From Geodermatophilus siccatus (GTDB taxonomy: Bacteria > Actinomycetota > Actinomycetes > Mycobacteriales > Geodermatophilaceae): 64,000 bases of DNA. A program made the position numbers and the translations under genes. The notes under the pieces are model-generated. The model saw nothing but the letters and a program-made list of their open reading frames with translations, searched no databases and had not been told where the DNA came from. Each line of letters starts with the position of its first letter. Position 1 is the first letter of the stretch. Of the stretch, positions 2,845-23,185 are shown piece after piece. The DNA lies in NCBI RefSeq assembly GCF_900103785.1, contig NZ_FNHE01000010.1, forward strand, positions 1 to 64,000. Direction: 5' to 3'.

Positions 2845-2847
2845 ACC

Positions 2848-5081: not shown

Positions 5082-5715
5082 CCCCCTGCCCGGTTCCCGC
5101 CCCGAGCTCGCGAGGGGCGCGGAGGAGGGGGTCCTCTCCCGGTACGACGTCGAGGTCGTGGCGCTGCTGGCCTCGCCCGTGCACCGCTACGACGGCCGAC
5201 CCGCAGGACCCGTCCCGCCGCAGGACGGCGACCGGCGCGCGGCGGTCGAGGTGCGGGCCGGGATCGGCGTGGTCGGGGACCGCTACGCCGGCCGCCCGGC
5301 GCACCGCGACGCCCAGCTGACCGTGCTCGCCGTCGAGGCGCTGGAGGCCGTCGCCGCCGAGACCGGATCCGCCCCGTTCGACCCGCACCTGGCCCGGCGC
5401 ACCGTCGTCCTGCGCGGCGCGGAGGTGGAGGCGCTGCGGGGGCAGCGGTTCACCCTGGACACCGGGTCCGGGCCGGTGCTGCTCGGCGGCGGGCGGCCGG
5501 CCCACCTCTGCGCCTGGATGGACGTCGTCCTGGCACCGGGCGCGCACCGGGCCCTGCGCGGCCGGGGCGGCGTGCGCTGCGCCGCGCTGTCGGACGGCGA
5601 GCTGCGGCTCGGGCCCGCCGTCCTCAGCTCGGCCGTCCCGCTGGACCCGGTGCGGGCCGGGGTAGCGGTCAGCCGAGCAGCGTGCGGACGGCCGCGGGGG
5701 CCTGCGTCGGCTTGA
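5059..5715 (+). CDS. MOSC domain protein
   Basis: 218 residues. From about residue 34 the sequence follows the MOSC fold (ALLASPVHRYDGRP, GVVGDRYAGRPAHRD, RRTVVLRGAEVEALRGQRF, LGGGRPAHLCAWMD, LRGRGGVRCAAL). MOSC domains bind molybdenum cofactor or persulfide sulfur. Here the first Cys of the usual RPCxxC motif is absent (RPAHLC); the second is kept. Residues 8-33 derive from a dispersed palindromic element, so GTG 5158 is an alternative start that would remove them. The 3' end overlaps the convergent VWA gene by 47 nt, so the last residues are antisense to that gene. Confidence 0.7.
   Translation: MPTAWSTSPLPGSRPELARGAEEGVLSRYDVEVVALLASPVHRYDGRPAGPVPPQDGDRRAAVEVRAGIGVVGDRYAGRPAHRDAQLTVLAVEALEAVAAETGSAPFDPHLARRTVVLRGAEVEALRGQRFTLDTGSGPVLLGGGRPAHLCAWMDVVLAPGAHRALRGRGGVRCAALSDGELRLGPAVLSSAVPLDPVRAGVAVSRAACGRPRGPASA
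5082..5137 (-). repeat. Palindromic element, copy 4 (inverted, inside MOSC frame)
   Basis: Follows the ClpP-like stop codon at once. Read on the minus strand it has the usual GGACCCCC lead and core CTCGCGAGCTCGGGG; so it points opposite to the upstream gene, unlike most copies. It is open in the MOSC frame. Confidence 0.55.
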
Positions 5716-6610
5716 GCAGCGGCGCCACCCGGCCGTCACCGGCGGCGGCCAGCGCGGCGCAGTTGGCCACCGACTCCGGCTCCTCCGACAGCGAGAGCAC
5801 GTGCAGGTGCGCGCCGGCGCGGGCCAGCGCCGCCGCGGCCGGCAGCGGGTCGGGGCTGTCGGTGGGCATCCCGTCGGAGAGCAGCAGCACGTCCCGGGCG
5901 GCCGCGCGGGAGCGGGCCAGCTGGGCCGCCGCGGTGCGCAGGCCCTGGTCCAGGTCGGTGGTGCCGCCGCCCTGCAGGTCGAACAGCCGGTCGACGACGG
6001 CGTCCGTGCGCGGGTCGGTGGACAGCGCCCGCAGCACGACCGCCCGCGACCAGAAGGCGACGACGGCCAGCTCGTCCCCGGGCCGCATCCGCTGGGACAG
6101 CGCCGAGGCGGTGAGCACGGCGACCGCGAGCTCGTCGCCTGCGACCGAGCCGGAGGCGTCGACGAGCAGCACGCACGCCCGGCCGGTGGAGCGCCAGCCG
6201 CGGGTGTGCAGGTGCTCGGCCCGCCAGTGCGGCTCGGCGCCGCGTGCGGCGAGGGTCGCGTCCAGGTCGATGTCGCTGCCGGTCTCGTCGCGGCGGGTCA
6301 CCACGCGGCGGGTGCCCGGGCGGTCGGGGACCCCGGCGCGCGGCGTGCCCACCGGCAGCCGGCAGGCCAGCGCCCGCGCGGCGGCCCGCAACGCCGGGTC
6401 GAACGCCCGCCCCATGGCCGTCAGCAGCCGGTTGGCCGCGTCGGGGTCGCGGGCGGTGAGGTCGGCCAGCGCCTCCTCGTCGAGCTCTCCCAGCTGCGGG
6501 GAGACCTGCTGGAACTCGGGGTGGGCCCGGGACAGCTCATCGCGGCCGGCGCGGCGGGCCTGGTGCTGCTTCAGCAGCTGTTCGACGTCGTCGGGGTCCT
6601 CCACGGGCAC
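5669..6610 (-). CDS. VWA domain protein paired with MoxR
   Basis: 313 residues from GTG 6610. An N-terminal helical part (EQLLKQHQARRAGRDELSR, DPDAANRLLTAMGRAF) precedes a VWA domain with MIDAS DASGSV near 151 and DGMPTDSPDP as a later metal-site loop. It is the third gene of a minus-strand series: alcohol dehydrogenase, MoxR, VWA. An upstream in-frame CTG overlaps the MoxR stop as CTGA and would add a 32-residue Pro-rich N-terminus; that start is possible but non-canonical. By analogy with BchI/BchD, NorQ/NorD and CoxD/CoxE it should bind the ATPase and present a client metalloenzyme. Confidence 0.82.
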   Translation of the reverse strand: MPVEDPDDVEQLLKQHQARRAGRDELSRAHPEFQQVSPQLGELDEEALADLTARDPDAANRLLTAMGRAFDPALRAAARALACRLPVGTPRAGVPDRPGTRRVVTRRDETGSDIDLDATLAARGAEPHWRAEHLHTRGWRSTGRACVLLVDASGSVAGDELAVAVLTASALSQRMRPGDELAVVAFWSRAVVLRALSTDPRTDAVVDRLFDLQGGGTTDLDQGLRTAAAQLARSRAAARDVLLLSDGMPTDSPDPLPAAAALARAGAHLHVLSLSEEPESVANCAALAAAGDGRVAPLLKPTQAPAAVRTLLG

Positions 6611-6702
6611 CGGCCGCGGCGGGCGGCGCCCCGGGGGTTCGGTCGGCCCGCCGTCCCCCGGCGGGGGTGGTGGCGGCTCGGGGTCGCCCGGTTCCTCGGG
6701 CG

Positions 6703-7596
6703 TCAGGCTTTTCCCAGCTCCTCACCCGCCCGGCGCCAGATGTCCGCGACGACGTCCTCCACCGGCCGGGTCGCGCCGTCGGCCAGGGTCACCTTGCCGG
6801 TGAGCGCGGCGAGGGCGGCGTCGAGTCCGGTGGTGTCCTCGACGGCCTCGTGCCCGCGGACGGTGGCCAGCTCCAGCGCGATGAGCACCGTGTCCAGGGC
6901 GCCGCGCACCGAGGAGCCGATCCGCAGCTCGGGGTGGTCGCGGGTGATCCGGACCGCCCGCACCGCCTGGGCGACCAGCCCCGCCGGCCCGCCGGTCGCG
7001 GTGGCGACGACGGCCAGCTCGGCCTCCTCGTCCTGGTAGCCCATCGCCACCCGGCAGGAGCGGTCGTACAGCGCCGGCGTCACCCGCGCGGTCCCCACCG
7101 CGTCGAACGGGTTCATGGCGGCGACCAGCCGGAACGTGGGCCGCGCGGTGACCCGGCCGAAGCGCGGCACGTGCATCTCCCGCTCCGACAGCACCCCGAG
7201 GAGCACGTTCATCGTCTCCTCGGGGACCCGGTTGAACTCCTCGACGTAGAGGATCGCGCCGTCGGTCATGGCCCGGGTGAGCGGGCCGGGCACGAAGTTC
7301 TCGGGGCGGTAGTCCTCGGTGAGCACCCGTGAGGCGTCGTGGTGGCCGACCAGCCGGGTGGGGGTGAGCTCGGCGTTGCCCTCGACCAGCACCAGTGGCA
7401 CGCCGGCACCGTCGGCCAGCGAGCGCAGCAGCGTCGTCTTGCCCGTGCCCGGCGGGCCCTCCAGCAGGACGTTGCGGCCGGCCGACAGCGCGGCCGCGAC
7501 GACCTCGGCCTCGCGGATGCGGGCGACCACCCGCTCGCGGGCGACCCGGACCATGCCGGTCACGTCGAGCCGCCGGGCGGTGGTGGTGGTGCTCAC
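6703..7596 (-). CDS. MoxR-type AAA+ ATPase next to NDMA-type alcohol dehydrogenase
   Basis: 297 residues. Walker A GPPGTGKT is near 47-54, Walker B ILYVEEFN near 114-121, and the sensor strand VAAMNPFD near 155-162. It differs from the CoxD-like ATPases at 719 and 21673 (NAELTPTRLVGHHD, SEREMHVPRFG), so it belongs to another MoxR branch. GTG at 7596 is preceded by AGGAGGAG at good spacing. It lies 128 nt downstream of the dehydrogenase, with a strong hairpin between, so the operon link is partial at most. The VWA partner follows. Inferred job: ATP-driven remodelling or metal-site assembly of the dehydrogenase. Confidence 0.85.
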   Translation of the reverse strand: MSTTTTARRLDVTGMVRVARERVVARIREAEVVAAALSAGRNVLLEGPPGTGKTTLLRSLADGAGVPLVLVEGNAELTPTRLVGHHDASRVLTEDYRPENFVPGPLTRAMTDGAILYVEEFNRVPEETMNVLLGVLSEREMHVPRFGRVTARPTFRLVAAMNPFDAVGTARVTPALYDRSCRVAMGYQDEEAELAVVATATGGPAGLVAQAVRAVRITRDHPELRIGSSVRGALDTVLIALELATVRGHEAVEDTTGLDAALAALTGKVTLADGATRPVEDVVADIWRRAGEELGKA

Positions 7597-7627
7597 GACG
7601 GGGCTCCTCCTGGGTGGCGACGTGCGA

Positions 7628-7657
7628 CCGGGGCGCCCCCGCGAGGGGGCGCCCCGG
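7628..7657 (-). terminator. Perfect GC hairpin downstream of alcohol dehydrogenase
   Basis: 13-nt perfect arms (CCGGGGCGCCCCC) close a GCGA tetraloop. It lies between the dehydrogenase 3' end and the moxR start. It has no U-tract. It probably reduces transcription from the strong dehydrogenase gene into the maturation genes. Confidence 0.6.
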
Positions 7658-7667
7658 CCTCGGCCGT

Positions 7668-7724
7668 GGCCCCGTCCAGGGCACCACCCGAGCCTGCGAA
7701 GGGTGGTGAGGACGGGGTCCTCTC
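7668..7724 (-). repeat. Stop-anchored palindromic element, copy 5
   Basis: Directly abuts the dehydrogenase stop codon (7725-7727). Read on the minus strand: GAGGACCCCGTCC, core TTCGCAGGCTCGGG, closing GGACGGGGCC. Same orientation relative to its gene as copies 1, 2 and 6. Confidence 0.65.
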
Positions 7725-8855
7725 TCAGTCGTCGTAGATGATGACGCCGCGGATGTTCTTGCCGGCCTTCATGTCCTCGTAGCCCTGGTTGACGTCGTCG
7801 AGCTTGTACCGGTTGGTGATCAGCTCGTCGAGCTTGAGCTTCCCCTCCTGGTAGAGGCGGAGCATCTTGAGGATGTCGGCGCTCGGGTTCTGGTCGCCGA
7901 ACAGCGCCCCGCGGATCTCCTTGGTGAACAACGCCATCATGCTGGGGTTGATCGGGATGCCCACGTCGGTCAGGTCGCCGAGGCCGGTGATGACGACCCG
8001 CCCGCCCTTGCCGATCGCCTCGAAGGCCTGCGCGACGTGCTCGCCCTTAAGCACCCCGACGGTGATCAGCGCCTTGTCCGCACCCTGTCCGTTGGTGACG
8101 CTGCGCGCGAAGTCGGCGGCCTCCTCGATGCTCTCGAAGGCGTGGGTGGCGCCGACCTCCTGCGCCTTCTCGCGCTTGAAGGCGATCGGGTCGACGGCGA
8201 TGACGTGGCTGGCGCCGGCGTGCGCCGCACCCTGGACGGCGTTGATGCCGATGCCGCCGATGCCCATGACGATCACCGTGTCGCCGGCCTTGACCTCACC
8301 GGCCTGCACCGCGGTGCCCCAGCCGGTGCCCACGCCGCAGCCGGTCAGGCACGCGACGTCGAGCGGGATGTCGTCGGGGATCTTCACCGTGGAGCGGACG
8401 TCGACGGTCGTCACCTCGGCGAAGGTGCCCAGGCCGCACATCTGGCCGACCGGCGTGCCGTCGCTGGTCTGGAAGCGGAAGCTCTCCGCGTCGTCCCAGC
8501 GGGAGCCGATCAGCAGGTTGGCGCCGGAGTCGCAGATGTACTGCTGGCCGTTGGCGCAGTAGCGGCACCGGCCGCAGCCGGGCAGGAACGAGAAGACGAC
8601 GTGGTCGCCCTCCTTGAACCCCGGGGTGCCCGGGCCGACGGCGGTGACGACGCCGGAGCCCTCGTGGCCGCCCAGGAACGGGTAGTGGCCGACCTGCATG
8701 TCGCCGGTGGCGATGTGGTCGTCCGAGTGGCAGAGACCGGACGCCGCCAGCTTGACCTGGAGTTCGCCCTGTCGCGGGTCGTCCGCGACCAGGTCGGTGA
8801 CCTCCCACTTGCCGGGAGCGGAGCGCAGGATCGCGCCGCGGGTGTTCACGGGCAC
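7725..8855 (-). CDS. NDMA-type (mycofactocin-linked) zinc alcohol dehydrogenase
   Basis: 376 residues of the zinc-dependent MDR alcohol dehydrogenase superfamily. The catalytic zinc ligand Cys42 lies in SGLCHSD, with His64-Glu65 in GGHEG; structural zinc Cys94, 97, 100 and 108 are in CGRCRYC and YIC. The nucleotide motif GIGGIG follows. The sequence style (HYPFLGGHEGSG, LLIGSRWDD, CGVGTGWGTAV) matches the NDMA-dependent alcohol dehydrogenases that keep NAD tightly bound and use mycofactocin to re-oxidise it. GTG 8855 is preceded by GAGGAGG. Downstream genes are MoxR and VWA. Its 5' region holds two dyads shared with a divergent monooxygenase promoter. A mycofactocin locus lies 15 kb away. Confidence 0.88.
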   Translation of the reverse strand: MPVNTRGAILRSAPGKWEVTDLVADDPRQGELQVKLAASGLCHSDDHIATGDMQVGHYPFLGGHEGSGVVTAVGPGTPGFKEGDHVVFSFLPGCGRCRYCANGQQYICDSGANLLIGSRWDDAESFRFQTSDGTPVGQMCGLGTFAEVTTVDVRSTVKIPDDIPLDVACLTGCGVGTGWGTAVQAGEVKAGDTVIVMGIGGIGINAVQGAAHAGASHVIAVDPIAFKREKAQEVGATHAFESIEEAADFARSVTNGQGADKALITVGVLKGEHVAQAFEAIGKGGRVVITGLGDLTDVGIPINPSMMALFTKEIRGALFGDQNPSADILKMLRLYQEGKLKLDELITNRYKLDDVNQGYEDMKAGKNIRGVIIYDD

Positions 8856-8894
8856 AGTGACCTCCTCGTCGCCCTCACCGCTGAGGGCCGCCTG

Positions 8895-8969
8895 CATGCA
8901 ACGGTGCATGTCCGTGACCGGCACGTTATGGCGTGGCTCACACCGATGGGAAGGCGGGTGCAACGTTGC
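8895..8969. promoter_or_regulatory. Divergent promoter region with two dyads
   Basis: Between the alcohol dehydrogenase (minus) and the monooxygenase (plus). One dyad is CATGCA-N4-TGCATG at 8895-8910; the other is a perfect GCAACGTTGC at 8960-8969. The longer 10-mer TGCAACGTTG (8959-8968) recurs at 39498-39507 before the cox genes. Likely operator sites; the regulator is unknown. Confidence 0.45.
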
Positions 8970-9006
8970 CGCTACCCCGCCGTCCGCGGGCTGCGAGAGT
9001 GACCCC

Positions 9007-10452
9007 GTGTCGGGAGCCCCGGTGGTCGTCGTCGGCGCCGGTCCCGTGGGCCTGACCGCGGCCCTGCTGCTGGCCCGTCGCGGGCTGCCGGTGCAGGTCC
9101 TGGAGCGGCGGTCGGCGCCCTACGGGCAGCCCCGCGCGGTGCACCTGGACGACGAGGCCCTGCGCGCGCTCGCAGACGCCGGGGTCGCCCAGGGCTTCCT
9201 CGCGCTCAGCCGCCCCATGCGGGGGCTGCGGCTGCTCGACGGGAGCCACCGGGTGCTCGCCGAGTTCGCCCGCGCCTCGTCGTCCGGACCGCACGGCTGG
9301 CCGCAGGGGTCGATGTTCTCCCAGCCCGACCTCGAGGAGCTGCTGCTGGCCGCCGTCCGCCGGGAGCCGCTCGTCGAGCTGCACACCGGCTGCGAGCTCG
9401 TGGGGCTGGCCCGGGACGGGGGCGTGACGCTGGACGTGCTCGACCGGGCCTCCGGCGCGCGCTCGCGGGTGCGCGCCGCCGCGGTGCTCGGCTGCGACGG
9501 GGCGAACAGCACGGTGCGGCGCCTGGTCGGGGCGCGCATGCGCGACCTGGGGCGTCCCGACCGCTGGCTGGTGGCCGACCTGCGCTCCGCTCAGCCGCTG
9601 CCGCTGTGGCCCGGGGTGCACCAGGTCTGCGACCCGCACCGGGCGGCGACCGCGATGCCGGTGTCCGGGGACCGCTACCGCTTCGAGTTCCGGCTGCTGC
9701 CCGGCGAGACCCGCGAGGACGTGGTCGCCCGGCTGCCCGCGCTGCTGGCCCCGTACGGCGCGGCGGACGCCGAGGTGGAGCGGGTCGCCGAGTACGTCTA
9801 CCGGGCCCAGGTGGCCGACCGCTGGCGCTCGGGGAGGGTGCTGCTCGCCGGCGACGCCGCACACCTGACCCCGCCGTTCATCGGGCAGGGGCTGGGGCTC
9901 GGGCTGCGCGACGTCCACCAGCTGGCCTGGAAGCTGGCCGCCGTCCTGGCCGGGACGGCGGCCGAGCGGCTGCTGGACACCCACCAGGCCGAGCGCGAAC
10001 CCCACGCGCGGGCGATGGTGCGGCTGGCGCTGCTGCTCGGCCGGCTGATGACCGGCGGCGGCCGCGGGGCCGCGGTGCTGCGCCGCGCGGTGCTGGCGGG
10101 CGTGCGCCGGGTGCCCGCCGTGGCCCGCTTCGCCACCGACAGCCGCACCCCGCCGCTGCGCCGCGGGCCGCTGGTGGTGCGCCGCGGCCGGGCCGGACGG
10201 CGGCTGGCCGGTTCACTGCTGCCGAGGGCCGCCGTGGTGCTCGACGGCCGGACGGTGCCGGTGGACGACGTCCTCGGCCCCGGGACGGCGCGGCTGCGGC
10301 TGCTGCTCCCCGGTCGGCTGGCGGTGCGCCCTGCGGGGGGCGGCGAGGTCGAGGTGGCCGACGCCGACGGCGGGCTCAGCGGGTGGCTGCGCGGGGCCGG
10401 GGCGGTCGCCGTCGTCGTCCGGCCGGACCGGATCGTCCTCTCGGCGTCCTGA
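9007..10452 (+). CDS. FAD-dependent aromatic-ring-type monooxygenase
   Basis: 481 residues of the FAD_binding_3 (MhpA/PheA) class. The N-terminal dinucleotide motif VVVVGAGPVGLTAALLLARRG is at 6-26. A conserved substrate/flavin segment (LGCDGANSTVRRLVGA) and the second FAD motif LLAGDAAHLTPPFIGQGLGLGLRD are near 275-300. The final 100 residues resemble the thioredoxin-like C-domain of phenol hydroxylases, without clear catalytic Cys. Family enzymes hydroxylate phenolics or similar substrates using NAD(P)H and O2; the substrate here cannot be told. GTG 9007 lies just before the flavin motif. It is divergent from the alcohol dehydrogenase, with shared regulatory space. Confidence 0.82.
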   Translation: MSGAPVVVVGAGPVGLTAALLLARRGLPVQVLERRSAPYGQPRAVHLDDEALRALADAGVAQGFLALSRPMRGLRLLDGSHRVLAEFARASSSGPHGWPQGSMFSQPDLEELLLAAVRREPLVELHTGCELVGLARDGGVTLDVLDRASGARSRVRAAAVLGCDGANSTVRRLVGARMRDLGRPDRWLVADLRSAQPLPLWPGVHQVCDPHRAATAMPVSGDRYRFEFRLLPGETREDVVARLPALLAPYGAADAEVERVAEYVYRAQVADRWRSGRVLLAGDAAHLTPPFIGQGLGLGLRDVHQLAWKLAAVLAGTAAERLLDTHQAEREPHARAMVRLALLLGRLMTGGGRGAAVLRRAVLAGVRRVPAVARFATDSRTPPLRRGPLVVRRGRAGRRLAGSLLPRAAVVLDGRTVPVDDVLGPGTARLRLLLPGRLAVRPAGGGEVEVADADGGLSGWLRGAGAVAVVVRPDRIVLSAS

Positions 10453-10489
10453 GCCGCGTGGGCCCCCGGCTGCCGGGTACGACCGGCAC

Positions 10490-10702
10490 ATGCAGATCGA
10501 CAAGAACCAGATCCTCGAACTCCTCCGCAGCCAGGGCGACGACGCCAAGGCGCAGCAGGCCGACCAGGAGCTGCCCGGCACCGTCGACACCGACCAGCAC
10601 GCCGGCATCCTCGAGAAGCTGGGCCTCTCGCCCATGGACCTGATCAGCAAGCTCGGCGGCGGTGGCGGCGGCGGGCTGGGCGGCCTCCTCGGCGGCCGCT
10701 GA
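10490..10702 (+). CDS. Small conserved-looking protein with Gly-rich tail
   Basis: 70 residues: an acidic helical head (KNQILELLRSQGDDAKAQQADQELP), a middle DTDQHAGILEKLGLSPMDLISKL, and a Gly/Leu tail. It lies 37 nt after the monooxygenase and ends at a strong hairpin. I have seen similar small actinobacterial proteins annotated as hypothetical; no function is known to me. The codon use and intact frame support a real gene. Confidence 0.7.
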   Translation: MQIDKNQILELLRSQGDDAKAQQADQELPGTVDTDQHAGILEKLGLSPMDLISKLGGGGGGGLGGLLGGR

Positions 10703-10711
10703 CCTCGTGTG

Positions 10712-10760
10712 TGCGCACGGGCGGCCCGGTCCCGCTGCGGGACGGGGCCGCTCGTGCGCA
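10712..10760 (+). terminator. Long hairpin after small protein gene
   Basis: 23-nt arms (TGCGCACGGGCGGCCCGGTCCCG and its near-complement) with two mismatches enclose a 3-nt loop. It starts 10 nt after the stop and is the most stable hairpin seen in the window; probable rho-independent-like stop without a U-tract. Confidence 0.65.
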
Positions 10761-10819
10761 ACGGCCCCGACCTGGGGACCGCGCTGCGTGCACGCACCGC
10801 GACGCGGCATGCTGCCCGG

Positions 10820-12049
10820 GTGAGCTACGACGTCGCCGCCGTCCGCGCCTGCTTCCCCGCCCTGCGTGCGGGAGCCGCCCACTTCGACGGCCCCGGCGGC
10901 TCCCAGGTGCCCGAGTCGGTGGCCGCCGCGGTGGCGGCCACCCTCACCTCGCCGATCGCCAACCGCGGGCGGGTCACCCAGGCCGAGCGCACCGCCGACG
11001 ACGTCGTCCTGGCCGCGCGGCAGGCGATCGCCGACCTCGTCGCCGGCGACCCCGGCGGGGTGGTGTTCGGCCGCAGCACGACCCAGCTGACCTACGACCT
11101 GTCCCGCACGCTGTCCGCCGGCTGGGGCCCGGGCGACGAGGTCGTGGTGACCCGCCTGGACCACGACGCCAACGTCCGCCCGTGGGTGCAGGCCGCGGCC
11201 GCCCGCGGGGCGACCGTGCGCTGGGCGGAGTTCGACCCGGCCACCGGCGAGCTCGCCCCCGAGGCGGTCGGGCGGGTCCTCTCCGACCGCACCCGGCTGG
11301 TCGCCGTCACCGGCGCCTCCAACCTCATCGGCACCCGGCCGGACGTCGCGGCGATCAGCGCGCTCGCCCACGACGCCGGCGCCCTCACCCACGTCGACGG
11401 CGTGCACCTCACCGCGCACGCCGCGGTGGACGTCCGCGCGCTCGGCGCCGACCTCTACGCCTGCTCGCCGTACAAGTTCCTCGGCCCGCACCTGGGCTGC
11501 GTCGTCGCGGACCCCGCCCTGCTGGGGAGACTGCACCCCGACAAGCTGCTGCCCTCCACCGACGCCGTCCCCGAGCGCTTCGAGCTGGGCACGCTGCCCT
11601 ACGAGCTGCTGGCCGGCACCACCGCCGCGGTGGACTTCCTCGCCGGGCTGGGTGGCCTCGCCGGCAGGGCCGGCGACGGCGGCCCGGAGAGTGACCGCCG
11701 CGCCCGGCTGGAGGCCGGGATGGCGGCGCTCGAGGAGCACGAGGACCGGCTGCGGGAGCGCATCGAGGACGGCGTCCGCGCGCTGCCCGGCGTCACCGTC
11801 TGGTCCCGGGCGGCCCGCCGCACGCCCACCCTGCTGCTCACCTTCGACGGTCGCGACGCCGCCGACGCGTACCGGTTCCTCGCCGAGCGCGGGGTCAACG
11901 CGCCCGCCGGGTCCTTCTACGCGATCGAGGCCTCCCGCCACCTCGGGCTCGGCGACACCGGCGGCCTGCGGGTGGGGCTCGCGCCCTACAACGACGACGA
12001 GGACGTCGACCGGCTGCTCGCGGGGTTGGGGGAGTGGCTCGACGGCTGA
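10820..12049 (+). CDS. Cysteine-desulfurase-like PLP enzyme (class V aminotransferase fold)
   Basis: 409 residues from GTG 10820. Fold-type I PLP enzyme of the class V group: YFDGPGGS-like start (HFDGPGGSQVP), phosphate-binding GRSTTQL near 85, HVDGVHLTAH with the PLP Asp, and the Schiff-base Lys in SPYKFLGPHLG near 220. It matches the cysteine desulfurase-like subfamily typified by Vibrio VC1184, whose substrate is not established; it lacks the obvious active-site Cys loop of IscS. It stands alone between a hairpin and a palindromic element. Supply of sulfur to cofactors (for instance molybdenum cofactor sulfuration) would fit the neighbourhood but is speculation. Confidence 0.8.
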   Translation: MSYDVAAVRACFPALRAGAAHFDGPGGSQVPESVAAAVAATLTSPIANRGRVTQAERTADDVVLAARQAIADLVAGDPGGVVFGRSTTQLTYDLSRTLSAGWGPGDEVVVTRLDHDANVRPWVQAAAARGATVRWAEFDPATGELAPEAVGRVLSDRTRLVAVTGASNLIGTRPDVAAISALAHDAGALTHVDGVHLTAHAAVDVRALGADLYACSPYKFLGPHLGCVVADPALLGRLHPDKLLPSTDAVPERFELGTLPYELLAGTTAAVDFLAGLGGLAGRAGDGGPESDRRARLEAGMAALEEHEDRLRERIEDGVRALPGVTVWSRAARRTPTLLLTFDGRDAADAYRFLAERGVNAPAGSFYAIEASRHLGLGDTGGLRVGLAPYNDDEDVDRLLAGLGEWLDG

Positions 12050-12131: not shown

Positions 12132-12144
12132 ACGGCGAGGGCCG

Positions 12145-12228: not shown

Positions 12229-13482
12229 GTGCCCGCTGCCGTGCGCACCCCGAGCGGGGCGACGACGACCACCGCCATCCCGGCCCGGTCCGCGTCCCCC
12301 GACGGTGTCGCGGTGCACCCGACCCCGGCCGTCGCCACGTTCACCAAGTACCTGGTGCCCGAGGTCGTCTTCGGCTGGGGCTCGCTGTCCGAGGCCGGCT
12401 GGGCCGCCCGGAGGTTGGGGGCGCAGCGGCCGTTCGTGGTCACCGACGCCGGTCTGGTGCAGGCCGGCTGGTGGGCCGAGCTCGCCGGCCACCTCGCCGA
12501 GGCCGGGCTGCGCGCGACCGTCTGGCAGGAGCTCACCCCGAACCCCAAGGACCACGAGGTCGCCGCCGGTGTGCAGCGCTACCTGGACAGCGGGTGCGAC
12601 GTCATCGTCGGCCTCGGCGGCGGCTCGGTCATCGACGCGGCCAAGGCGATCGCGGTCGTGGCGAGCAACGGCGGGCAGATCCTCGACTACGAGGGCGTCG
12701 ACAAGGTCACCGCGGCGATCCCGCCGACCGTGATGTGCCCCAGCACCGCCGGCACCGGCGCCGACGTCTCGCAGTTCGCCGTCATCACCGACACCACCCG
12801 CCGGCTCAAGGCCACCCTGATCGGCCGGGCGCTGGTGCCCGACATCTCGATCACCGACCCGCGGCTGCTCACCACGATGCCCGACGACCTCGCCGCCGCG
12901 ACCGGCCTGGACGCGCTGACCCACGGCATCGAGGCGTTCGTCTCCCGGGCGTCCGGCCCGCTCACCGACGTGCACGCGCTGCACGCCATCGAGCTGATCT
13001 GCAGCTCGCTGCGCGGCACCCTCGACCGGCCGGAGGACCCCGCCGCGCACACCGCGATGGCCCAGGCCAGCCTCGAGGCGGGGCTGGCCTTCACCAACGC
13101 GATCCTCGGCGCCACCCACGCCATGAGCCACCAGGTCGGCGGGCTGCTCGACCTGCCCCACGGCGTCGTCAACGGCGTCCTGCTGCCGCACGTCATCCGG
13201 TTCAACGCGCGCAGTGCGCCGGACCGGTTCGTCCCCATCGCGCGGGCCATGGGCATCGACGTCACGGGGCTGCCGGCCGACGTCGCCGCCGAGGAGGCCG
13301 CCGAGGCCGTCGGCCGGCTGGCCGCGGACCTGGGCTGCCCGCGCGGGCTGGCCGAGCTCGGCGTGCGCGAGACCGACATCGAGACCCTCGCCGTCACCAC
13401 CCTCGGCGACGCGTGCCTGTCGACCAACCCCCGCGACGCCGACTCCACCGACATCGCCGCGCTGTTCCGCGCGGCCCTGTGA
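12229..13482 (+). CDS. Iron-containing alcohol dehydrogenase
   Basis: 417 residues, group III iron-type dehydrogenase. The nucleotide motif GLGGGSVIDAAKA is near 127-139. Metal ligands are in TGLDALTHGIEAF (Asp, His) and HAMSHQVGGLLDLPHG (two His). The first about 35 residues are a low-complexity extension (ATTTTAIPARSASPDG), so a later start is possible, though GTG 12229 has a good ribosome site. It is followed 10 nt later by a histidine kinase and an overlapping response regulator, so all three are probably one operon. Related ErcA-like dehydrogenases in pseudomonads sit in alcohol-sensing regulatory circuits, so this protein may be catalytic or sensory. Confidence 0.85.
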   Translation: MPAAVRTPSGATTTTAIPARSASPDGVAVHPTPAVATFTKYLVPEVVFGWGSLSEAGWAARRLGAQRPFVVTDAGLVQAGWWAELAGHLAEAGLRATVWQELTPNPKDHEVAAGVQRYLDSGCDVIVGLGGGSVIDAAKAIAVVASNGGQILDYEGVDKVTAAIPPTVMCPSTAGTGADVSQFAVITDTTRRLKATLIGRALVPDISITDPRLLTTMPDDLAAATGLDALTHGIEAFVSRASGPLTDVHALHAIELICSSLRGTLDRPEDPAAHTAMAQASLEAGLAFTNAILGATHAMSHQVGGLLDLPHGVVNGVLLPHVIRFNARSAPDRFVPIARAMGIDVTGLPADVAAEEAAEAVGRLAADLGCPRGLAELGVRETDIETLAVTTLGDACLSTNPRDADSTDIAALFRAAL

Positions 13483-13492
13483 CCCGCCGCTG

Positions 13493-14812
13493 ATGCGCGC
13501 ACCCGACATCTCCGAGCTCACCGGGCTGCGCTCGTCCAAGCCGAGTTGGTACGCCGAGTACCGGCAGACCGTCGACGACCTCGACCGCGCGCTGGGCTCG
13601 CTGGAGCACATCGCCGGCGTCCTCTCGGCCACCGGGCAGGGCGCCCAGGCGCTCTGCCGGGCGGTCGTCGACGCCACCGCGGAGCACCTCGGCGAGCCGT
13701 GGGCCGTGCTGGCGCTGTCCGGGACGGCGCTGCCGCTCGCCCGCCCGCGGCTGCTCGGCCGCGGCCCGTCGGGGGTCGGGGTGGGCCACCTGGCGCTGCT
13801 GCCGGAGGTGGTGCGCCGCCCGGTCACCGAGGCGCTGGAGGCCGACGCCGTCGAGCCGTGGCAGACCGCGGACGGCGCGGTCGTCGTCCCCCTGGTGGTC
13901 GACGGCGAGCCGGTCGGCGCGCTGGTCGCCTGCGGCGGGCCCCGGCGGACGGCGACCGCCGCGGACCTGGCCATCCTGCGGATCGCGGCCAACCAGTCGG
14001 CGGTCGCGCTGCTCTCGGACCACCTGCTGGCGCGGTCGGAGGGGCTGCGCCGGCAGACCGAGGAGCTCTACGCGCAGGCCGAGCAGCGGGCCCGCGACCT
14101 CGCCGACCGGCACGAGCAGCTGGCCGAGGCCGAGCGGCGGCTGGACGTCGCCGCGCAGCGCGAGGCGGTGGACGCCGAGCGGCACCGGATCGCCCGCGAG
14201 CTGCACGACAGCGTGGCCCAGCACGTGCTCTCGGCGGGGATGACGATCGAGTGGTGCCGGCCGGAGGTGGCCCACCACAGCGAGGTCTACGAGCGGCTCG
14301 GGCACGCCAAGGCGCTGACCCGCGAGGCGGTGGAGCGGCTGCGCGGCGCCATCCACGCGCTCTCCTCCGACGGCCACGGGGACGGTGACGGGCTGCCCGC
14401 GCTGCTGGGCCGGCTCTCCGACGTCGCCCCGGTGCCGGGCCTGGCCGTCGCCGTCCGGGTGGAGGGGCGCCCGCGCGAGCTGCCCCCGGAGGTCGAGCAC
14501 TCGCTGTTCCGGATCGCCTCGGAGTGCCTGTTCAACACCGCCCGGCACGCGCAGGCCACCCGGAGCACCGTGCGGCTGGCCTACCGGTCCGACGAGCTGC
14601 GGCTCTCGGTCGCCGACGACGGCTGCGGCGACCCCGACGTGCTGCGCCGGGCGCTGCGGGCCTCGGGACGCCGGGACGACGGGTACCACCGCGGGCTGGG
14701 CAACATCGCCTCCCGCTGCCGGGAGATGGGGGCGACGGTGCGGATCACGCGGGCCCGGATGGGCGGGGTGCGGGTGGAGGTCCGGATGCCGTGGGACGCC
14801 GTCGATGGCTGA
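13493..14812 (+). CDS. GAF-domain sensor histidine kinase (NarL-type partner)
   Basis: 439 residues without membrane segments. A GAF-like domain occupies about 45-180 (LCRAVVDATAEHLGEPWAVLALS, VVVPLVVDGEPVGALVACGG), then a coiled-coil (RRQTEELYAQAEQRARDLADRHEQLAEAERRL). A HisKA_3 dimerisation helix follows with phospho-His238 in ELHDSVAQHVL, and a HATPase domain with N-box ECLFNTARHAQAT and G-box HRGLGNIASR. It should sense a soluble cue and phosphorylate the response regulator whose gene overlaps by 8 nt. Its position after an alcohol dehydrogenase suggests an alcohol- or aldehyde-related signal. Confidence 0.9.
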   Translation: MRAPDISELTGLRSSKPSWYAEYRQTVDDLDRALGSLEHIAGVLSATGQGAQALCRAVVDATAEHLGEPWAVLALSGTALPLARPRLLGRGPSGVGVGHLALLPEVVRRPVTEALEADAVEPWQTADGAVVVPLVVDGEPVGALVACGGPRRTATAADLAILRIAANQSAVALLSDHLLARSEGLRRQTEELYAQAEQRARDLADRHEQLAEAERRLDVAAQREAVDAERHRIARELHDSVAQHVLSAGMTIEWCRPEVAHHSEVYERLGHAKALTREAVERLRGAIHALSSDGHGDGDGLPALLGRLSDVAPVPGLAVAVRVEGRPRELPPEVEHSLFRIASECLFNTARHAQATRSTVRLAYRSDELRLSVADDGCGDPDVLRRALRASGRRDDGYHRGLGNIASRCREMGATVRITRARMGGVRVEVRMPWDAVDG

Positions 14813-16566: not shown

Positions 16567-16570
16567 CCCG

Positions 16571-16596
16571 GCGGCCATCTCCGCGGAGATGGCCGC
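16571..16596. terminator. Perfect 26-nt palindrome
   Basis: GCGGCCATCTCCG followed by its exact complement, starting 4 nt after the reductase stop. A closely related 22-nt palindrome is at 23365-23386. It could be a terminator hairpin or a dimeric-protein site upstream of the GH15 gene. Confidence 0.5.
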
Positions 16597-16626
16597 TGCG
16601 ACCGGCAGAGGACGGAGGAACAGCCG

Positions 16627-18849: not shown

Positions 18850-18855
18850 CGGGTC

Positions 18856-18912
18856 GGCCCCCTGCAGGGTCCCGCCACGAGCCTGCGAGTGACGGGGGGC
18901 AGGGGGTCTTCC
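18856..18912 (-). repeat. Stop-anchored palindromic element, copy 7
   Basis: Ends one base before the VWA stop codon (18913). On the minus strand: GAAGACCCCCTGCC, core CTCGCAGGCTCG, closing GGGGGCC. It fills the space between convergent genes. Confidence 0.6.
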
Positions 18913-20424
18913 TCAGCGGGAGGAGGCGCGGGTGACGACGTCGGTCGCCCAGCTCTCCAGCCCCGAGTGGTCGCGGATGACCTCGACCCGGTCGCAGCTC
19001 TCCGCGTAGGCCGGCAGGTCGCAGCCGCCCAGCGCCCACGAGTAGCGCGGCTCCGGGGTCAGCCAGATCGTCTCGCGCACCCGGCGGGTCAGGTCGGCGA
19101 AGACGTCCAGCCGGGGGGCGTTGCCGTTGCCCCGGCCGTCGCCGAGCACCAGCAGCGTCGAGCGGCGGGTGAACGCGCCGGAGTGGTCGGCGGCGAGCGT
19201 GGCGAACACCGCGCCGTAGTCGCTGGAGGCGTCCACGTCGATGACGTCGCCGCCGAAGACCAGGCCCAGGGCGTGCTCCAGCGGGTGCTCGTCGAACAGG
19301 TCGGTGATCTCGACGACGTCGTCCACGAACGCGAAGGTGCGCACCTGCGCGAACAGGTCCTGCAGCGCGTGGACGACGTGCAGCGTGAACCGCGCCGTCG
19401 TCCGCACCGACAGGCTGACGTCGGCGACCACGACCAGCCGCGGCTTGTCCTCGGCGAGCCGGGTGGTGACGGGCCGGAAGGGGACTCCGTCGTAGCGCAG
19501 GTTGCGCCGCATCGTGCGGGCGACGTCGACCCGCCCGCGCGGGGACTGCCGCTTCTTGTGCGTCAGACCGCCGTGCAGCGAGGTGGCCAGCCGGCGCAGC
19601 GACTCCTCGATCCGCGCCCGCTCGGCCTCGGTCACCTTCTCCACCGGCGCGCGGGCCAGCTCGCGCTCCTCGACGGCGACGTCGGTCATCTCGGCGAGCT
19701 TCTGCAGGTGCGCGGCGAGCAGCTCGGGGAGGTCCTCGATGACGCCGGCGAGCTGGCGCCGCAGCGCCTCGGCCACCTCGGGGTCCAGGTCGCCGACCGG
19801 GTCGGCCAGCCAGTCCCGCAGCGCCTGCTGCTGGGCCACCGACAGCTCCAGGTCCAGCTGGGTGCCCCCGCCGCGCACCAGGTCGCCGGGCAGGCCGGGG
19901 TCGTGCAGCCGCGACACCTCCAGCTGCACCTTCTGAGCGTCGTCCGCCGGCCCGCCGCGGCTCTCCGAGGACAGCACGATCTGCTGGGTCAGGGAGGCCA
20001 GGTCGACCTTGTTGGCCTCCTGGTGCAGGTTGTACTGCGCCGCGAGGTCCTCGGGCTTGAAGAACTCCTTGATGTCGACCGGCTTGCCGTGGCTGTGCCC
20101 CTCCTGCACGTCGGCGGCGGGGTCCGGCGACCAGGTCATCCGCTGCAGCTCGCCGGTGTCGGCCAGGTCGTCGTGGGCGTGCCCGTGCCCCTCGTCCGCG
20201 TCGACCACCGCCCGCAGGCCGAAGAAGCGGGCGAAGGTGTCGGCGAAGACCTCGGCGTCCCGGCGGTCCTTGAGCAGCGCCGCGCCGAGCGCGGCCTCCA
20301 GCGCGAGCCGGTCGCTCACCCCGACCGCGGCCGCGGCGTCGAAGGCGTCGATCGCCTCCGCCGTCGAGATCCGCATCCCGCGCAGTCGCAGCAGCCGGAC
20401 GAAACGGTGCAGGGCCCCCTCCAC
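18913..20424 (-). CDS. VWA domain protein (CoxE-like) of the methanol dehydrogenase module
   Basis: 503 residues from GTG 20424, whose codon is separated from the upstream MoxR stop by one base. An N-terminal helical domain (VEGALHRFVRLLRLRGMRIS) leads to two short His clusters (EGHGHAHDD, EGHSHG), a charged middle, and a C-terminal VWA domain with a MIDAS variant DVSLSV near 335 and DGRGNGN later. The third MIDAS-motif residue is Leu rather than Gly. It is the partner of the His-tailed MoxR upstream, and both follow an Mno-type dehydrogenase on the same strand. The His clusters in both partners suggest metal handling. Confidence 0.82.
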   Translation of the reverse strand: MEGALHRFVRLLRLRGMRISTAEAIDAFDAAAAVGVSDRLALEAALGAALLKDRRDAEVFADTFARFFGLRAVVDADEGHGHAHDDLADTGELQRMTWSPDPAADVQEGHSHGKPVDIKEFFKPEDLAAQYNLHQEANKVDLASLTQQIVLSSESRGGPADDAQKVQLEVSRLHDPGLPGDLVRGGGTQLDLELSVAQQQALRDWLADPVGDLDPEVAEALRRQLAGVIEDLPELLAAHLQKLAEMTDVAVEERELARAPVEKVTEAERARIEESLRRLATSLHGGLTHKKRQSPRGRVDVARTMRRNLRYDGVPFRPVTTRLAEDKPRLVVVADVSLSVRTTARFTLHVVHALQDLFAQVRTFAFVDDVVEITDLFDEHPLEHALGLVFGGDVIDVDASSDYGAVFATLAADHSGAFTRRSTLLVLGDGRGNGNAPRLDVFADLTRRVRETIWLTPEPRYSWALGGCDLPAYAESCDRVEVIRDHSGLESWATDVVTRASSR

Positions 20425-20425
20425 C

Positions 20426-21673
20426 TCAGACCGGCCGCCGTCGCGTGCCGCCCCCGCGGTTGGGGGCGAACGAGCGGGCACCCTGGCCGGCGCGGACCTG
20501 GCGCGGGGGAGCCGGCGTCCCGGACTCGGTCGGCGCCTGCTGGCCGTAGTAGTTCTCGTCGTGCCGGCCCGGCCGGTCCTTCGCCGCGCGCGCCCGGCGG
20601 CCGTCGTCCTCGTGGTCGTGGTCGTGGTCATGGGAGTGCCCGCCGTGGGTGTGCGCCCCGTGCGAGTGGGGATGCCCGTGCGCGTGGTCGTGCCCGTGCC
20701 CCAGGGACTCGGGCACCGTCGCGTTCGGGTCGACCAGCCGGGGCAGCGCCTCGCGGGAGCGCTGCACGTCGCGCTCGTACTTGGCGACGACGGAGACGGT
20801 GTCGCCGAGCACCCCGGCGTCCAGCTCGCTCACGCCCAGGACGGCGAGGGTGCGGGCCCAGTCGATCGTCTCGGAGATGCTCGGGGCCTTGCGCAGGTCT
20901 AGGCCGCGCAGCCCGCGGACGATCTCGACCAGCCGCTGCGCCGCCGCGTCGTCCAGGCCGGTCTGCTTCGAGCGCAGGATCTCCAGCTCGCGGTCGGCGT
21001 CGGGGTACTCGAGGAACAGGTGCAGGCAGCGGCGCTTGAGCGCTGCCGAGAGGTCGCGGGTGTTGTTCGAGGTCAGGACGACGTAGGGCGGCGCCTTGGC
21101 GACGAACGTGCCGATCTCGGGCACCGACACCTGGTACTCCGCGAGCATCTCCAGCAGCACCGCCTCCAGGGCCTCGTCGGCGCGGTCGACCTCGTCGACC
21201 AGCAGAACGACCGGCTCCTCGGAGCGGACCGCCTCCAGCAGCGGGCGCGGGGCGAGGAATCGCTCGTTGAAGAACGCGCTGTCCGCGCCGGCGATCCGGT
21301 CGACGGCGTCCGCCAGGGTGGAGGTGTCCTCCAGCAGCTCGGCCGCCTTGTCCCGCAGGATCTGCGTGTAGAGCAGCTGCTTGCCGTAGTCCCACTCGTA
21401 GAGGGCCTTGGTCTCGTCCTGCCCCTCGTAGCACTGCAGGCGCAGCAGCCTGCGCCCGGTGGCGGCGGCCAGCGTCTTGGCCAGCTCGGTCTTGCCGACG
21501 CCGGCCGGGCCCTCCAGCAGCAGCGGCTTGGCCAGGCGGGACATCACGAAGGTCGTCGTCGCCAGCCGCCGGTCGGCGATGTAGCCGTGCTCGGCGAAGG
21601 CGCGGGCGACGTCGTCGGGGGAGGTGAAGTCGGAGGTGGGGACGGCGTCGGCGGGCACGGGCTGGACGGTCAC
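20426..21673 (-). CDS. MoxR-type AAA+ ATPase with His-rich tail
   Basis: 415 residues. AAA+ core at 20-310: Walker A GPAGVGKT (55-62), Walker B LLVDEVD (157-163), sensor LTSNNT (200-205) and SAALKRR. It is close to the CoxD-like ATPase at 719. A C-terminal extension carries 14 His within residues 326-354, mixed with Asp, Gly and Ser, then a basic tail ending GGGTRRRPV. His tails of this type bind Zn, Ni or Co in metallochaperones; none is usual for MoxR ATPases to my knowledge. GTG 21673 follows GAGGAG and overlaps the stop of a repeat-encoded mini-ORF. Inferred role: metal delivery or activation of the neighbouring Mno-type enzyme. Confidence 0.87.
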   Translation of the reverse strand: MTVQPVPADAVPTSDFTSPDDVARAFAEHGYIADRRLATTTFVMSRLAKPLLLEGPAGVGKTELAKTLAAATGRRLLRLQCYEGQDETKALYEWDYGKQLLYTQILRDKAAELLEDTSTLADAVDRIAGADSAFFNERFLAPRPLLEAVRSEEPVVLLVDEVDRADEALEAVLLEMLAEYQVSVPEIGTFVAKAPPYVVLTSNNTRDLSAALKRRCLHLFLEYPDADRELEILRSKQTGLDDAAAQRLVEIVRGLRGLDLRKAPSISETIDWARTLAVLGVSELDAGVLGDTVSVVAKYERDVQRSREALPRLVDPNATVPESLGHGHDHAHGHPHSHGAHTHGGHSHDHDHDHEDDGRRARAAKDRPGRHDENYYGQQAPTESGTPAPPRQVRAGQGARSFAPNRGGGTRRRPV

Positions 21674-21750
21674 GCGTTCTCCTCGCTGGCGCTCGTCGTC
21701 CGCGCGCCCAGGGGTGCTGTGTCTCCGGGTGACCTCGCGAGCTCGGTCAC
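21670..21750 (-). CDS. Repeat-encoded mini-ORF A, coupled to moxR
   Basis: A 26-residue frame (MTELARSPGDTAPLGARTT...) whose TGA overlaps the GTG of moxR as GTGA. It is one unit of a 77-nt tandem duplication. GAGGAG precedes its own GTG. It may act as a coupling cistron rather than a functional peptide. Confidence 0.3.
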   Translation of the reverse strand: MTELARSPGDTAPLGARTTSASEENA

Positions 21751-21829
21751 GGGTTCTCCTCGCTGGCGCTCGTCGTCCGCGCGCCCAGGGGTGCTGTGTC
21801 TCCGGGTGACCTCGCGAGCTCGGTCACGG
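21676..21829 (-). repeat. 77-nt tandem duplication before moxR
   Basis: Two apparently identical 77-nt copies at 21676-21752 and 21753-21829. Each contains a ribosome site GAGGAG, a GTG start, and the palindromic GTGACC...GGTCAC. The unit length equals 27 codons minus the 4-nt GTGA overlap, so the chain of coupled frames is preserved. Confidence 0.85.
21747..21827 (-). CDS. Repeat-encoded mini-ORF B, coupled to mini-ORF A
   Basis: Same 26-residue frame as mini-ORF A except the last residue (Pro instead of Ala). Its TGA overlaps the GTG of mini-ORF A. It lies 65 nt downstream of the methanol dehydrogenase stop codon. Confidence 0.3.
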   Translation of the reverse strand: MTELARSPGDTAPLGARTTSASEENP

Positions 21830-21892
21830 GCTCCTCGTCGGGAGGGTGGGGCGGGGTGAGCAGGCGGCGCACCCCGCCCCACCGGGGTCGGA

Positions 21893-23185
21893 TCAGCTGA
21901 GGAGGTCGTCCAGGTCGCCGTTCATGCAGTGCTCGACCACCGGGCGGACGGTCTCGAACGTGCACTCCTTGGCGTTGCCCGGGGTGCAGGCGTCGCCGAG
22001 GACGTGGTTGGTGATGCGGTCGACGTCGGTGTCGTCGCCCTTGATCACCGAGGCGTTCTCGTAGAACTTGGTCGGGCCCTGGCCCAGCCGGTTCTTCGAG
22101 TAGCTGTCCTGGGTGACGTCGGTGAACTTCTCCGGGATGCCGACGTCGCGCAGCAGTCGGATCGCGGCGGCCAGCGCCGCGTCGGCGGCCTGGGGGGCGG
22201 TCATGCCGTGGGTGTCGACCCCCATGGCCTCGGCGATGTCGGCGAAGCGCTGGTACTGGGTGGGCATGTTGAACGCCCACACGCGGGGCAGCGCGATGGC
22301 GTTGTTCAGGCCGTGGTGGGTGTCGTAGAAGGCGCTCACCGCGTGGCTGATCGAGTGGATGATGCCGAGGCCGCCGGAGTTGAACGCCTGGGCGGCGATG
22401 TACTGCGCGTACATCATCCCCTCGCGGCCGGCGAGGTCCTGGCCGTTCCACACCGCCTGGCGCAGGTGCTCCGAGGTGAGCTTGATGGCGTACAGCGCGT
22501 TGCCCAGGGAGGGCTGGAAGTTCAGCCGGGAGACGTAGGGCTCGCTGGCGTGCGCCAGGACGTCGAAGCCGCACTGCGCGGTGTAGTCGATCGGGCAGTC
22601 GTAGTAGAGGACCGGGTCGTCGATCGCCAGCGTCGTCACCGAGGTGTCGTCGAACGCCACGTACTTGTGCGGGTTGTCCGGGTCGGTCGTGGTGTCGGTG
22701 ATGACGTAGGCCCAGCTGGTCTCCGAGCCGGTGCCGGCCGTGGTGGAGACGGCGATGTGCGGCGGGTTCCTCGGGTTCTCCGACTGGTTGAAGCCCTCGA
22801 ACTCGTTGACGCTGCGGCCGTCGTGGGCCACCGAGATCCGCGCGCCCTTGCAGGCGTCGTGGCTGGAGCCGCCGCCGATGGAGACGAAGCTGTCGCACTC
22901 GTTCTCCTGGTACAGCGCCACGGCGTCCATGACGTTGTAGTCCTTGGGGTTCGACTCGACCTTGTCGTAGACCACGACATCGAGGCCGTGGTACTTCATC
23001 GACTCGGCGATCTTGTGGACGACGTCCGTGCCGCGCAGGCCCGACGTCATGATCAGCGTCCGCTTGAAGCCCAGCTTGAGGGCCTCCGGGCCGATGATCT
23101 CGTGCGCGCCGGGGCCCATCAGGGCCCGCGGGAACGGGTGGAACTCCTTGATCGGGAAGGGCTTGAGGAGTTCTTCGACCTTCAT
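21893..23185 (-). CDS. mno: Mno-type NDMA-dependent methanol dehydrogenase
   Basis: 430 residues, close in length and sequence style to the methanol:NDMA oxidoreductases of Mycobacterium and Amycolatopsis (group III iron-type dehydrogenases, decameric, metal-containing, with tightly bound NADPH). Cofactor motif SIGGGSSHDACKG near 98-110; metal-ligand region CGFDVLAHASEPYVS near 203-217 and HSISHAVSAFYDTHHGLNNAIALPRV near 275-300. Enzymes of this class need mycofactocin to turn over in vivo. It heads a minus-strand series with MoxR and VWA and lies 0.9 kb from mftA, back to back with mftR. ATG 23185 has only a weak AAGGA ribosome site. Physiological substrates could be methanol or other short alcohols. 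Confidence 0.9.
   Translation of the reverse strand: MKVEELLKPFPIKEFHPFPRALMGPGAHEIIGPEALKLGFKRTLIMTSGLRGTDVVHKIAESMKYHGLDVVVYDKVESNPKDYNVMDAVALYQENECDSFVSIGGGSSHDACKGARISVAHDGRSVNEFEGFNQSENPRNPPHIAVSTTAGTGSETSWAYVITDTTTDPDNPHKYVAFDDTSVTTLAIDDPVLYYDCPIDYTAQCGFDVLAHASEPYVSRLNFQPSLGNALYAIKLTSEHLRQAVWNGQDLAGREGMMYAQYIAAQAFNSGGLGIIHSISHAVSAFYDTHHGLNNAIALPRVWAFNMPTQYQRFADIAEAMGVDTHGMTAPQAADAALAAAIRLLRDVGIPEKFTDVTQDSYSKNRLGQGPTKFYENASVIKGDDTDVDRITNHVLGDACTPGNAKECTFETVRPVVEHCMNGDLDDLLS

Follow-up and report, generated by a model that had tools for sequence, protein, structure and literature searches.

MoxR ATPase and VWA protein genes directly behind dehydrogenases of unrelated folds suggest an undescribed energy-driven activation step in mycofactocin-producing bacteria

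The window analysed here, the first 64 kb of contig NZ_FNHE01000010.1 from the 5.2 Mb genome of Geodermatophilus siccatus, carries two gene series in which a dehydrogenase is followed on its own strand by a MoxR-type AAA+ ATPase and then by a protein with a VWA domain (Table 1). In the first series the dehydrogenase is a zinc-dependent alcohol dehydrogenase (ADH) of the N,N-dimethyl-4-nitrosoaniline (NDMA) type, and we refer to its companions as MoxR-N and VWA-N; these labels are our own, and MoxR-N is not the MoxR1 gene of M. tuberculosis. In the second series the dehydrogenase is Mno, and its companions are of the MadB and MadC types. This order, together with its coordinates, was pointed out by a first-pass annotation and was verified at both places, as was a third MoxR-VWA pair lying with an XdhC gene at 719-4000, with all three genes on the forward strand. 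The statement of the same annotation that the two dehydrogenases share no fold also proved correct, the zinc enzyme having the PF08240 and PF00107 domains and Mno the PF00465 domain. As set against related genomes, these arrangements suggest that mycofactocin makers often place a MoxR and VWA pair directly behind dehydrogenases that presumably depend on this cofactor, irrespective of fold, which points to an undescribed energy-driven activation step.

Table 1. Genes and features of the window, with bit scores against the named models
Feature	Position	Strand	Model match and remarks
Third MoxR ATPase (CoxD-like)	719..1636	+	MadB model 266 bits, under cut-off; 45% identical to the window's MadB
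Third VWA protein (CoxE-like)	1626..2804	+	VWA_CoxE 175 bits; MadC NF047783 74 bits, under cut-off
XdhC family protein	2861..4000	+	XdhC_C 149 bits; XdhC_CoxI 130 bits
VWA-N	5669..6610	-	Pfam VWA; metal-ion-dependent adhesion site (MIDAS) intact: D151, S153, S155, T218, D246
MoxR-N, AAA+ ATPase of the zinc-ADH series	6703..7596	-	AAA_5 101 bits
NDMA-type zinc alcohol dehydrogenase	7725..8855	-	TIGR03989 585 bits (cut-off 440); longest open reading frame extends to 8963
MadC-type VWA protein	18913..20631	-	NF047783 258 bits, under cut-off 600; VWA_CoxE 112 bits
MadB-type MoxR ATPase of the Mno series	20426..21673	-	NF047784 374 bits, under cut-off 475
Histidine-rich tail of MadB	20612..20701	-	14 His in 30 residues (residues 325-354); position computed from residue numbers
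Mno, NDMA-dependent methanol dehydrogenase, Fe-ADH fold	21893..23185	-	TIGR04266 684 bits (cut-off 625)
Mycofactocin radical SAM maturase MftC	24612..25853	+	TIGR03962 653 bits (cut-off 265)
Mycofactocin-system OYE family oxidoreductase 2	30766..32721	+	TIGR03997 963 bits (cut-off 793)

The two dehydrogenase-linked pairs belong to separate lineages. MoxR-N and the MadB-type ATPase of the window are 27.8% identical over 216 residues, and in a tree of 95 MoxR proteins MadB falls among the CoxD-like rows, far from MoxR-N; both results agree with the earlier view that the ATPases come from different branches and that the arrangement did not arise by simple duplication. The NCBIfam families MadB (NF047784) and MadC (NF047783) already exist for the Mno-linked pair, so this pair is known to curators, although the literature searched did not reveal where the Mad names come from. 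The window's Mno-linked proteins match both families and stand in the same order behind Mno, but none of the window's MoxR or VWA proteins that were scored reaches the respective curated cut-offs of 475 and 600 bits. MoxR-N and VWA-N lie outside these families altogether: the MadB model gives MoxR-N 61 bits, and VWA-N has no match to the MadC model at an E-value of 0.001. The window's MoxR-N shares 96% identity with its G. sabuli counterpart, and the order of dehydrogenase, MoxR and VWA genes recurs across the phylum at about 50% protein identity, which places it far beyond chance.

To trace the MoxR-N lineage we searched 296 Actinomycetota genomes (minimum completeness 90; the set was taken as identical across searches) for the NDMA ADH family TIGR03989, MftC, a MoxR-N profile and the Mno family TIGR04266. 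MftC was found in 46 genomes and the NDMA ADH in 43, every one of them within those 46. MoxR-N is present in 29 genomes, comprising 25 of the 46 with MftC, which span 10 families, and 4 of the 250 without it (Fisher p = 9e-20, a value that is only a guide since the genomes are akin to one another). The enrichment with mycofactocin genes that the first-pass annotation had proposed to look for with mftA is thus seen with MftC in its place. The four MftC-negative genomes supply the four lowest MoxR-N scores (249-314 bits against at least 368 elsewhere); two of these relatives adjoin molybdenum-hydroxylase genes and the other two are without a dehydrogenase of the mycofactocin class. The 25 MftC-positive genomes contain 30 MoxR-N genes, every one of which stands behind either an NDMA zinc ADH (22) or a mycofactocin-associated short-chain dehydrogenase/reductase (SDR; 8), and many of these cassettes are within a few kb of mftC. 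Six of the eight SDR cases belong to the subfamily TIGR03971 (in genomes G400 and G409, and in G351 and G198, both of which have two MoxR genes in tandem) and two to TIGR04504 (G388 and G244); two of the eight SDR-linked MoxR-N genes are the second member of a tandem MoxR pair. For 75 TIGR03989 genes besides the window's we read flanks of about 6 kb on each side, or to the contig end. Among the resulting 76 ADHs, 22 have MoxR-N directly downstream and 3 are the first of two ADHs preceding MoxR-N; we call these cassette ADHs and the remainder lone ADHs. All ten other cassette ADHs tested score above the TIGR03989 cut-off.

A closer sample of 150 genomes from the window's own taxonomic order yielded 44 MoxR-N matches in 34 genomes, and 36 of the 44 loci were read. 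A zinc ADH lies directly upstream in 17 of them, the window's included, an ADH adjoins on the opposite strand in 2, and a TIGR03971 SDR lies upstream in 8. MftC was found in 33 of the 34 genomes, and the exception, G068, carries an ADH cassette; the tie to mycofactocin genomes therefore persists even where the neighbour differs. A further scan of named genomes with the MoxR alignment provided the best 80 loci, some of which share a genome (L205 and L264), with 68 in the family and 12 distant. Directly upstream of MoxR-N in the 68 we found a zinc ADH in 37, a TIGR03971 SDR in 12, a TIGR04504 SDR in 2, an ordinary SDR in 2 (L240 and L245), a contig-end cut in 2 and other genes in 13, and a VWA gene adjoins MoxR-N in 65. 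Fifty of these loci, representing 49 genomes, were submitted to the MftC search, which was positive in 43 genomes. In three checks with hidden Markov models the upstream SDRs exceeded the TIGR03971 cut-off in 7 of 7, 10 of 10 and 9 of 9 cases, the 12 named loci all being among those checked, and the TIGR04504 cut-off was exceeded by 4 of 6 SDRs checked, L240 and L245 having ordinary SDRs. Two observations weaken, though they do not remove, the idea that the SDR link reflects mere crowding in the mycofactocin gene cluster: the SDR-MoxR-VWA sets of G351 and G198 are over 1 Mb away from MftC, and 7 of the 12 named TIGR03971 loci show no MftC in the stretch read. Some of these stretches are short, however; L239 carries an MftD-like gene, and a homologue of the open reading frame that adjoins MftC is present in L256 and L264. 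In L152 and L153 an OYE_1 gene directly precedes MoxR-N with no SDR between. Thus, the proposal that mycofactocin-linked dehydrogenases have dedicated MoxR-VWA partners is backed by both neighbourhood and co-occurrence, and two SDR subfamilies can be added to the partners first noted.

The distribution of partners on the MoxR tree is orderly: the labels zinc ADH, SDR subfamily 1 and SDR subfamily 2, counted over 63 of the 95 rows with unlabelled rows excluded, need two changes, the minimum for three labels. The Walker A motif differs accordingly between groups, being GPPGTSK in 16 of 17 rows of the SDR-1 group and GPPGTGK in 40 of 42 rows of the zinc-ADH group. This tree and the ADH tree come from quick searches with Shimodaira-Hasegawa-like approximate likelihood ratio (SH-aLRT) support only, and the MoxR tree was flagged for long branches. 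We also considered whether cassette ADHs form a single clade and rejected this, as 13 changes of label are required on the ADH tree (no fewer than 11 of them forced by supported branches; mean of shuffled labels 21). The simplest reading is that one ancestral helper module was passed twice to another dehydrogenase fold and was often lost. Tandem MoxR-N genes preceding one VWA gene were seen behind two or three mycofactocin SDRs in L182 (6626-8420) and L183 (6533-8298), where the products might possibly form a mixed hexamer. A metagenome-assembled genome labelled Bifidobacterium breve (L207) has a mycofactocin SDR with MoxR-N, and MftC is present in the genome; the label looks doubtful.

For the Mno series there are 13 Mno-like matches in 12 of the 296 genomes; MadB lies directly behind Mno in 12 of the 13, the thirteenth (G299) being at a contig end, and wherever the flank extends far enough, which is the case in 10 loci with the window included, MadC comes next. 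The window's MadC match starts at residue 76, so the true start of this protein is probably near 20406. Histidine-rich tails like that of the window's MadB (11 to 14 His in 30 residues) are present in 5 of 10 MadB proteins, and 6 of 10 MadC proteins have patches of 5 to 8 His in 30 residues, whereas in MoxR-N (over its first 330 residues) and in VWA-N no such stretch has more than 4. A tandem pair of MadC-type genes was observed behind one Mno-MadB in L193 (3939-7167).

The motor residues of MoxR-N and the MIDAS of VWA-N are intact. The Walker A motif GPPGT.K and the EE pair are invariant in the MoxR-N alignments, in keeping with AAA+ ATPases, and all five MIDAS residues are kept in 63 of 64 aligned VWA-N rows (rows of less than 200 residues excluded). 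The AlphaFold2 model of MoxR-N (predicted local distance difference test score, pLDDT, 92) has NorQ and CbbQ as its nearest solved folds, with NorQ as the top structural match (template modelling scores 0.73/0.84), and the VWA-N model (pLDDT 88.7) matches VWA domains. Two NorD chains rank 4 and 6 in the Foldseek search with VWA-N, with 266-270 aligned columns at a root mean square deviation near 9, most other chains listed having about 160-215 columns; in a second structural comparison, made to look in VWA-N for a finger that would enter the AAA+ pore as in NorD, no NorD was among the 50 matches listed. The two proteins are fused, sharing a single reading frame, in 5 of the 21 sets from the survey and in 11 of the 66 from named genomes. 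Such a frame of 609 residues was also seen at 5995-7824 of both L154 and L156, two loci without an adjoining dehydrogenase of this class; in L154 the next gene encodes a response regulator.

Enzymes that hold NAD permanently are termed nicotinoproteins. From the gene order, the co-occurrence, the pattern of partners on the tree, the intact motor and MIDAS residues, the NorQ/CbbQ-like fold and the histidine tails we propose, with about even confidence, that two unrelated MoxR-VWA lineages are dedicated ATP-driven activators of mycofactocin-class nicotinoproteins, MoxR-N/VWA-N opening the NAD site and MadB/MadC loading metal. Under this proposal a MoxR-N hexamer would drive its VWA-N partner, whose MIDAS might grip an acidic patch on the dehydrogenase; the closed NAD site would be pulled open, which would allow the loading of NAD or the reset of a dead-end complex with NADH, in a manner resembling the action of CbbQ/CbbO on Rubisco. 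One ancestral module would have been retargeted from the zinc ADH to the two SDR subfamilies, while the MadB/MadC machine would probably load or reload the Mno metal, aided in some lineages by the histidine-rich tails. That NAD is permanent in the proteins studied here we infer from their families, and the physical binding, the pulling and the NAD or metal cargo are likewise inferred. For the MoxR-N/VWA-N arm we put forward, with slightly less than even confidence, the more specific idea of a cofactor-class activase: an ATP-driven opener of NAD sites that was retargeted across unrelated folds, and whose clients would be chosen by their permanent NAD and use of mycofactocin rather than by fold or metal. 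The client families do share non-exchangeable NAD, demonstrated for some members, and a mycofactocin link (PMC3023750, PMC5264612; excerpts).

The SDRs have a metal-free fold, which bears on the question of metal versus NAD. Metal loading was one of two purposes offered earlier for the pairs; taken as a common purpose, it would mean that both lineages insert or replace a metal in the active site of the dehydrogenase, much as NorQ/NorD do with iron. Iron insertion does require NorQD (PMC13036017, PMC9976466; excerpts), Mno and the zinc ADH both come from metal-binding families, and histidine-rich tails occur in half of the MadB proteins, with smaller histidine patches in more than half of the MadC proteins. 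Furthermore, in L146 (5009-8403) a zinc-uptake gene of the ZnuA type immediately precedes the MoxR-N/VWA-N pair, the sole hint of a metal link seen in the MoxR-N arm. However, MoxR-N serves SDRs as well, and no difference in zinc ligands is seen between the 25 cassette and the 51 lone ADHs, which together imply that a zinc job is not common to the family; MoxR-N and VWA-N also have no histidine-rich stretch. The window's own ADH has Cys42, His64 and Cys173, and Cys94, Cys97, Cys100 and Cys108, presumably the catalytic and structural zinc ligands, going by horse ADH. Hence, metal loading as the task of both lineages appears unlikely: it loses its footing in the zinc-ADH arm, whereas in the Mno arm metal delivery is credible because 5 of 10 MadB proteins carry the histidine-rich tails. 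The overall interpretation in the first-pass annotation is partly supported; its other suggestion, that the pairs might open the enzyme for its bound nicotinamide to meet mycofactocin, would be a conceivable further role.

A folding or oligomer-assembly chaperone that does not act on the cofactor would account for the indifference to fold and metal, and MoxR ATPases have been called chaperone-like (PMC3893208; excerpts). Yet such a role leaves the rarity of ordinary ADH and SDR partners unexplained: the window's genome yields 43 ADH-like matches (some genes being counted twice as two fragments), and an ordinary SDR is the upstream gene in just the 2 of 68 named loci mentioned above. We regard this explanation as distinctly unlikely. 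Likewise, the pair might have no direct function on the dehydrogenase and be kept in the operon for regulation or by descent, as the loci lacking an adjoining dehydrogenase of this class could indicate, but the position of all 30 MoxR-N genes in the MftC-positive survey genomes, the maintenance of the order at about 50% identity and the two genomes in which the arrangement is remote from mftC make this hardly credible.

Several results weigh against our proposal as a whole. The pair is not universal, since 51 of the 76 NDMA ADHs have no adjoining MoxR-N, and it is in places dispensable, since in one family (f8, probably Mycobacteriaceae judging from gene content) ten genomes together have 32 NDMA ADHs and not a single MoxR-N. 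In the window's order 9 of the 36 loci have neither a zinc ADH nor an SDR adjoining, 2 being behind OYE_1 and 7 behind other or unnamed genes (L041, for which only short flanks were available, L146, L148, L154, L156, L163 and L164), and in 5 of the 8 SDR cases there is a gap of about 0.9 kb. A mycofactocin-class dehydrogenase is not directly upstream in 13 of the 68 named loci, and MftC was not found in 6 of the 49 named genomes (L222, L228, L236, L238, L261 and L263), these six being of unstated completeness. We also evaluated Glu233 of the ADH, which is present in 21 of 25 cassette and 8 of 51 lone ADHs of the survey, as an acidic docking signature and rejected it: pairs controlled for kinship give p values of 0.06-0.125, and in the named loci Glu occurs in 23 of 37 direct and 4 of 6 lone ADHs. 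In the Mno arm half of the MadB proteins (5 of 10) are without the histidine tail. Moreover, five Mno-like genes under the TIGR04266 cut-off are in genomes without an MftC match above 115 bits, and four of these five have MadB, two having been read as far as MadC, which indicates that the Mno pair does not need mycofactocin.

These last observations also bear on the notion that the pair is a handover device, which would dock the dehydrogenase onto its electron acceptor, either mycofactocin or the carrier that comes next, and let electrons leave the buried NADH. The tight link of MoxR-N to MftC genomes and the proximity of many cassettes to mftC are what this predicts. Against it stand the Mno-like genes with MadB in four MftC-negative genomes and the many NDMA ADHs of MftC genomes that lack the pair; in addition, electron transfer is not obviously in need of an ATP motor. 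We consider such a role very unlikely.

The proposed activase is best compared with MoxR-VWA systems already described. Like MoxR-N/VWA-N, NorQ/NorD comprises a MoxR AAA+ ATPase and a MIDAS-bearing VWA protein encoded beside the target, and it has been proposed that the VWA protein, moved by ATP, opens up the target so that iron can be inserted (PMC13036017, PMC9976466; excerpts). In contrast to MoxR-N, which is about 26% identical to NorQ and also serves the metal-free SDRs, NorQD acts in iron insertion on a membrane iron enzyme. CbbQ/CbbO is likewise a MoxR-VWA pair encoded with its enzyme, and CbbQ is among the top fold matches of MoxR-N; the pair releases bound sugar phosphate from Rubisco, and one genome has been found with several such pairs, linked to different Rubisco forms (PMC5437159; excerpts). 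Its target is Rubisco and its ligand a sugar phosphate, whereas MoxR-N has several dehydrogenases as clients and, putatively, NAD as cargo. CoxD and CoxE serve CO dehydrogenase, a molybdenum enzyme (PMC3471820, PMC4240915; excerpts), rather than NAD-holding dehydrogenases; the third set of the window resembles CoxD/CoxE with XdhC, and its ATPase has MadB as a nearer relative than MoxR-N.

In the literature searched we found no link between MoxR or VWA proteins and mycofactocin, with subscription papers thinly covered, such that prior notice elsewhere is possible; a single paper names both MoxR and mycofactocin, and it appears to be unrelated. The available portions of PMC3023750, PMC11778925, PMC5264612, PMC6529628 and PMC11166783 do not mention such a pair, and the lone mention of an ATPase, in PMC11778925, concerns transport. 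In our judgement, how NAD enters, and is reset inside, enzymes that retain it is an open question of mycofactocin biochemistry. The presence of a dedicated ATP motor behind three nicotinoprotein families, namely the zinc ADH and the two kinds of SDR, and of another behind Mno puts NAD entry within reach of experiment and may help to explain the difficulty of assaying such enzymes in isolation. If the proposal is true, MoxR-VWA systems have as clients not only metal enzymes and Rubisco but also an entire cofactor class. A possible further client class is suggested by L261 (5968-7661), where a MoxR-VWA relative from Peptococcaceae is downstream of mono- and dimethylamine methyltransferase genes in one of the genomes in which MftC was not found.

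Two other regions of the window are related to these systems. Genes for two subunits of a molybdenum hydroxylase, the large one and the one that binds FAD, lie at 40006-43651 (CO-dehydrogenase- or glyceraldehyde-dehydrogenase-like, under the respective cut-offs), and the CoxD/CoxE/XdhC-like set may have this enzyme as a client. At 12229-14812 an ErcA-like Fe-ADH (470 bits) adjoins a MadS-type sensor kinase (440 bits), both being under their cut-offs. Homologues of these two genes adjoin Mno-MadB-MadC in L189, L191 and L195, and we presume that they perhaps form an alcohol-sensing unit, as ErcA does in Pseudomonas.

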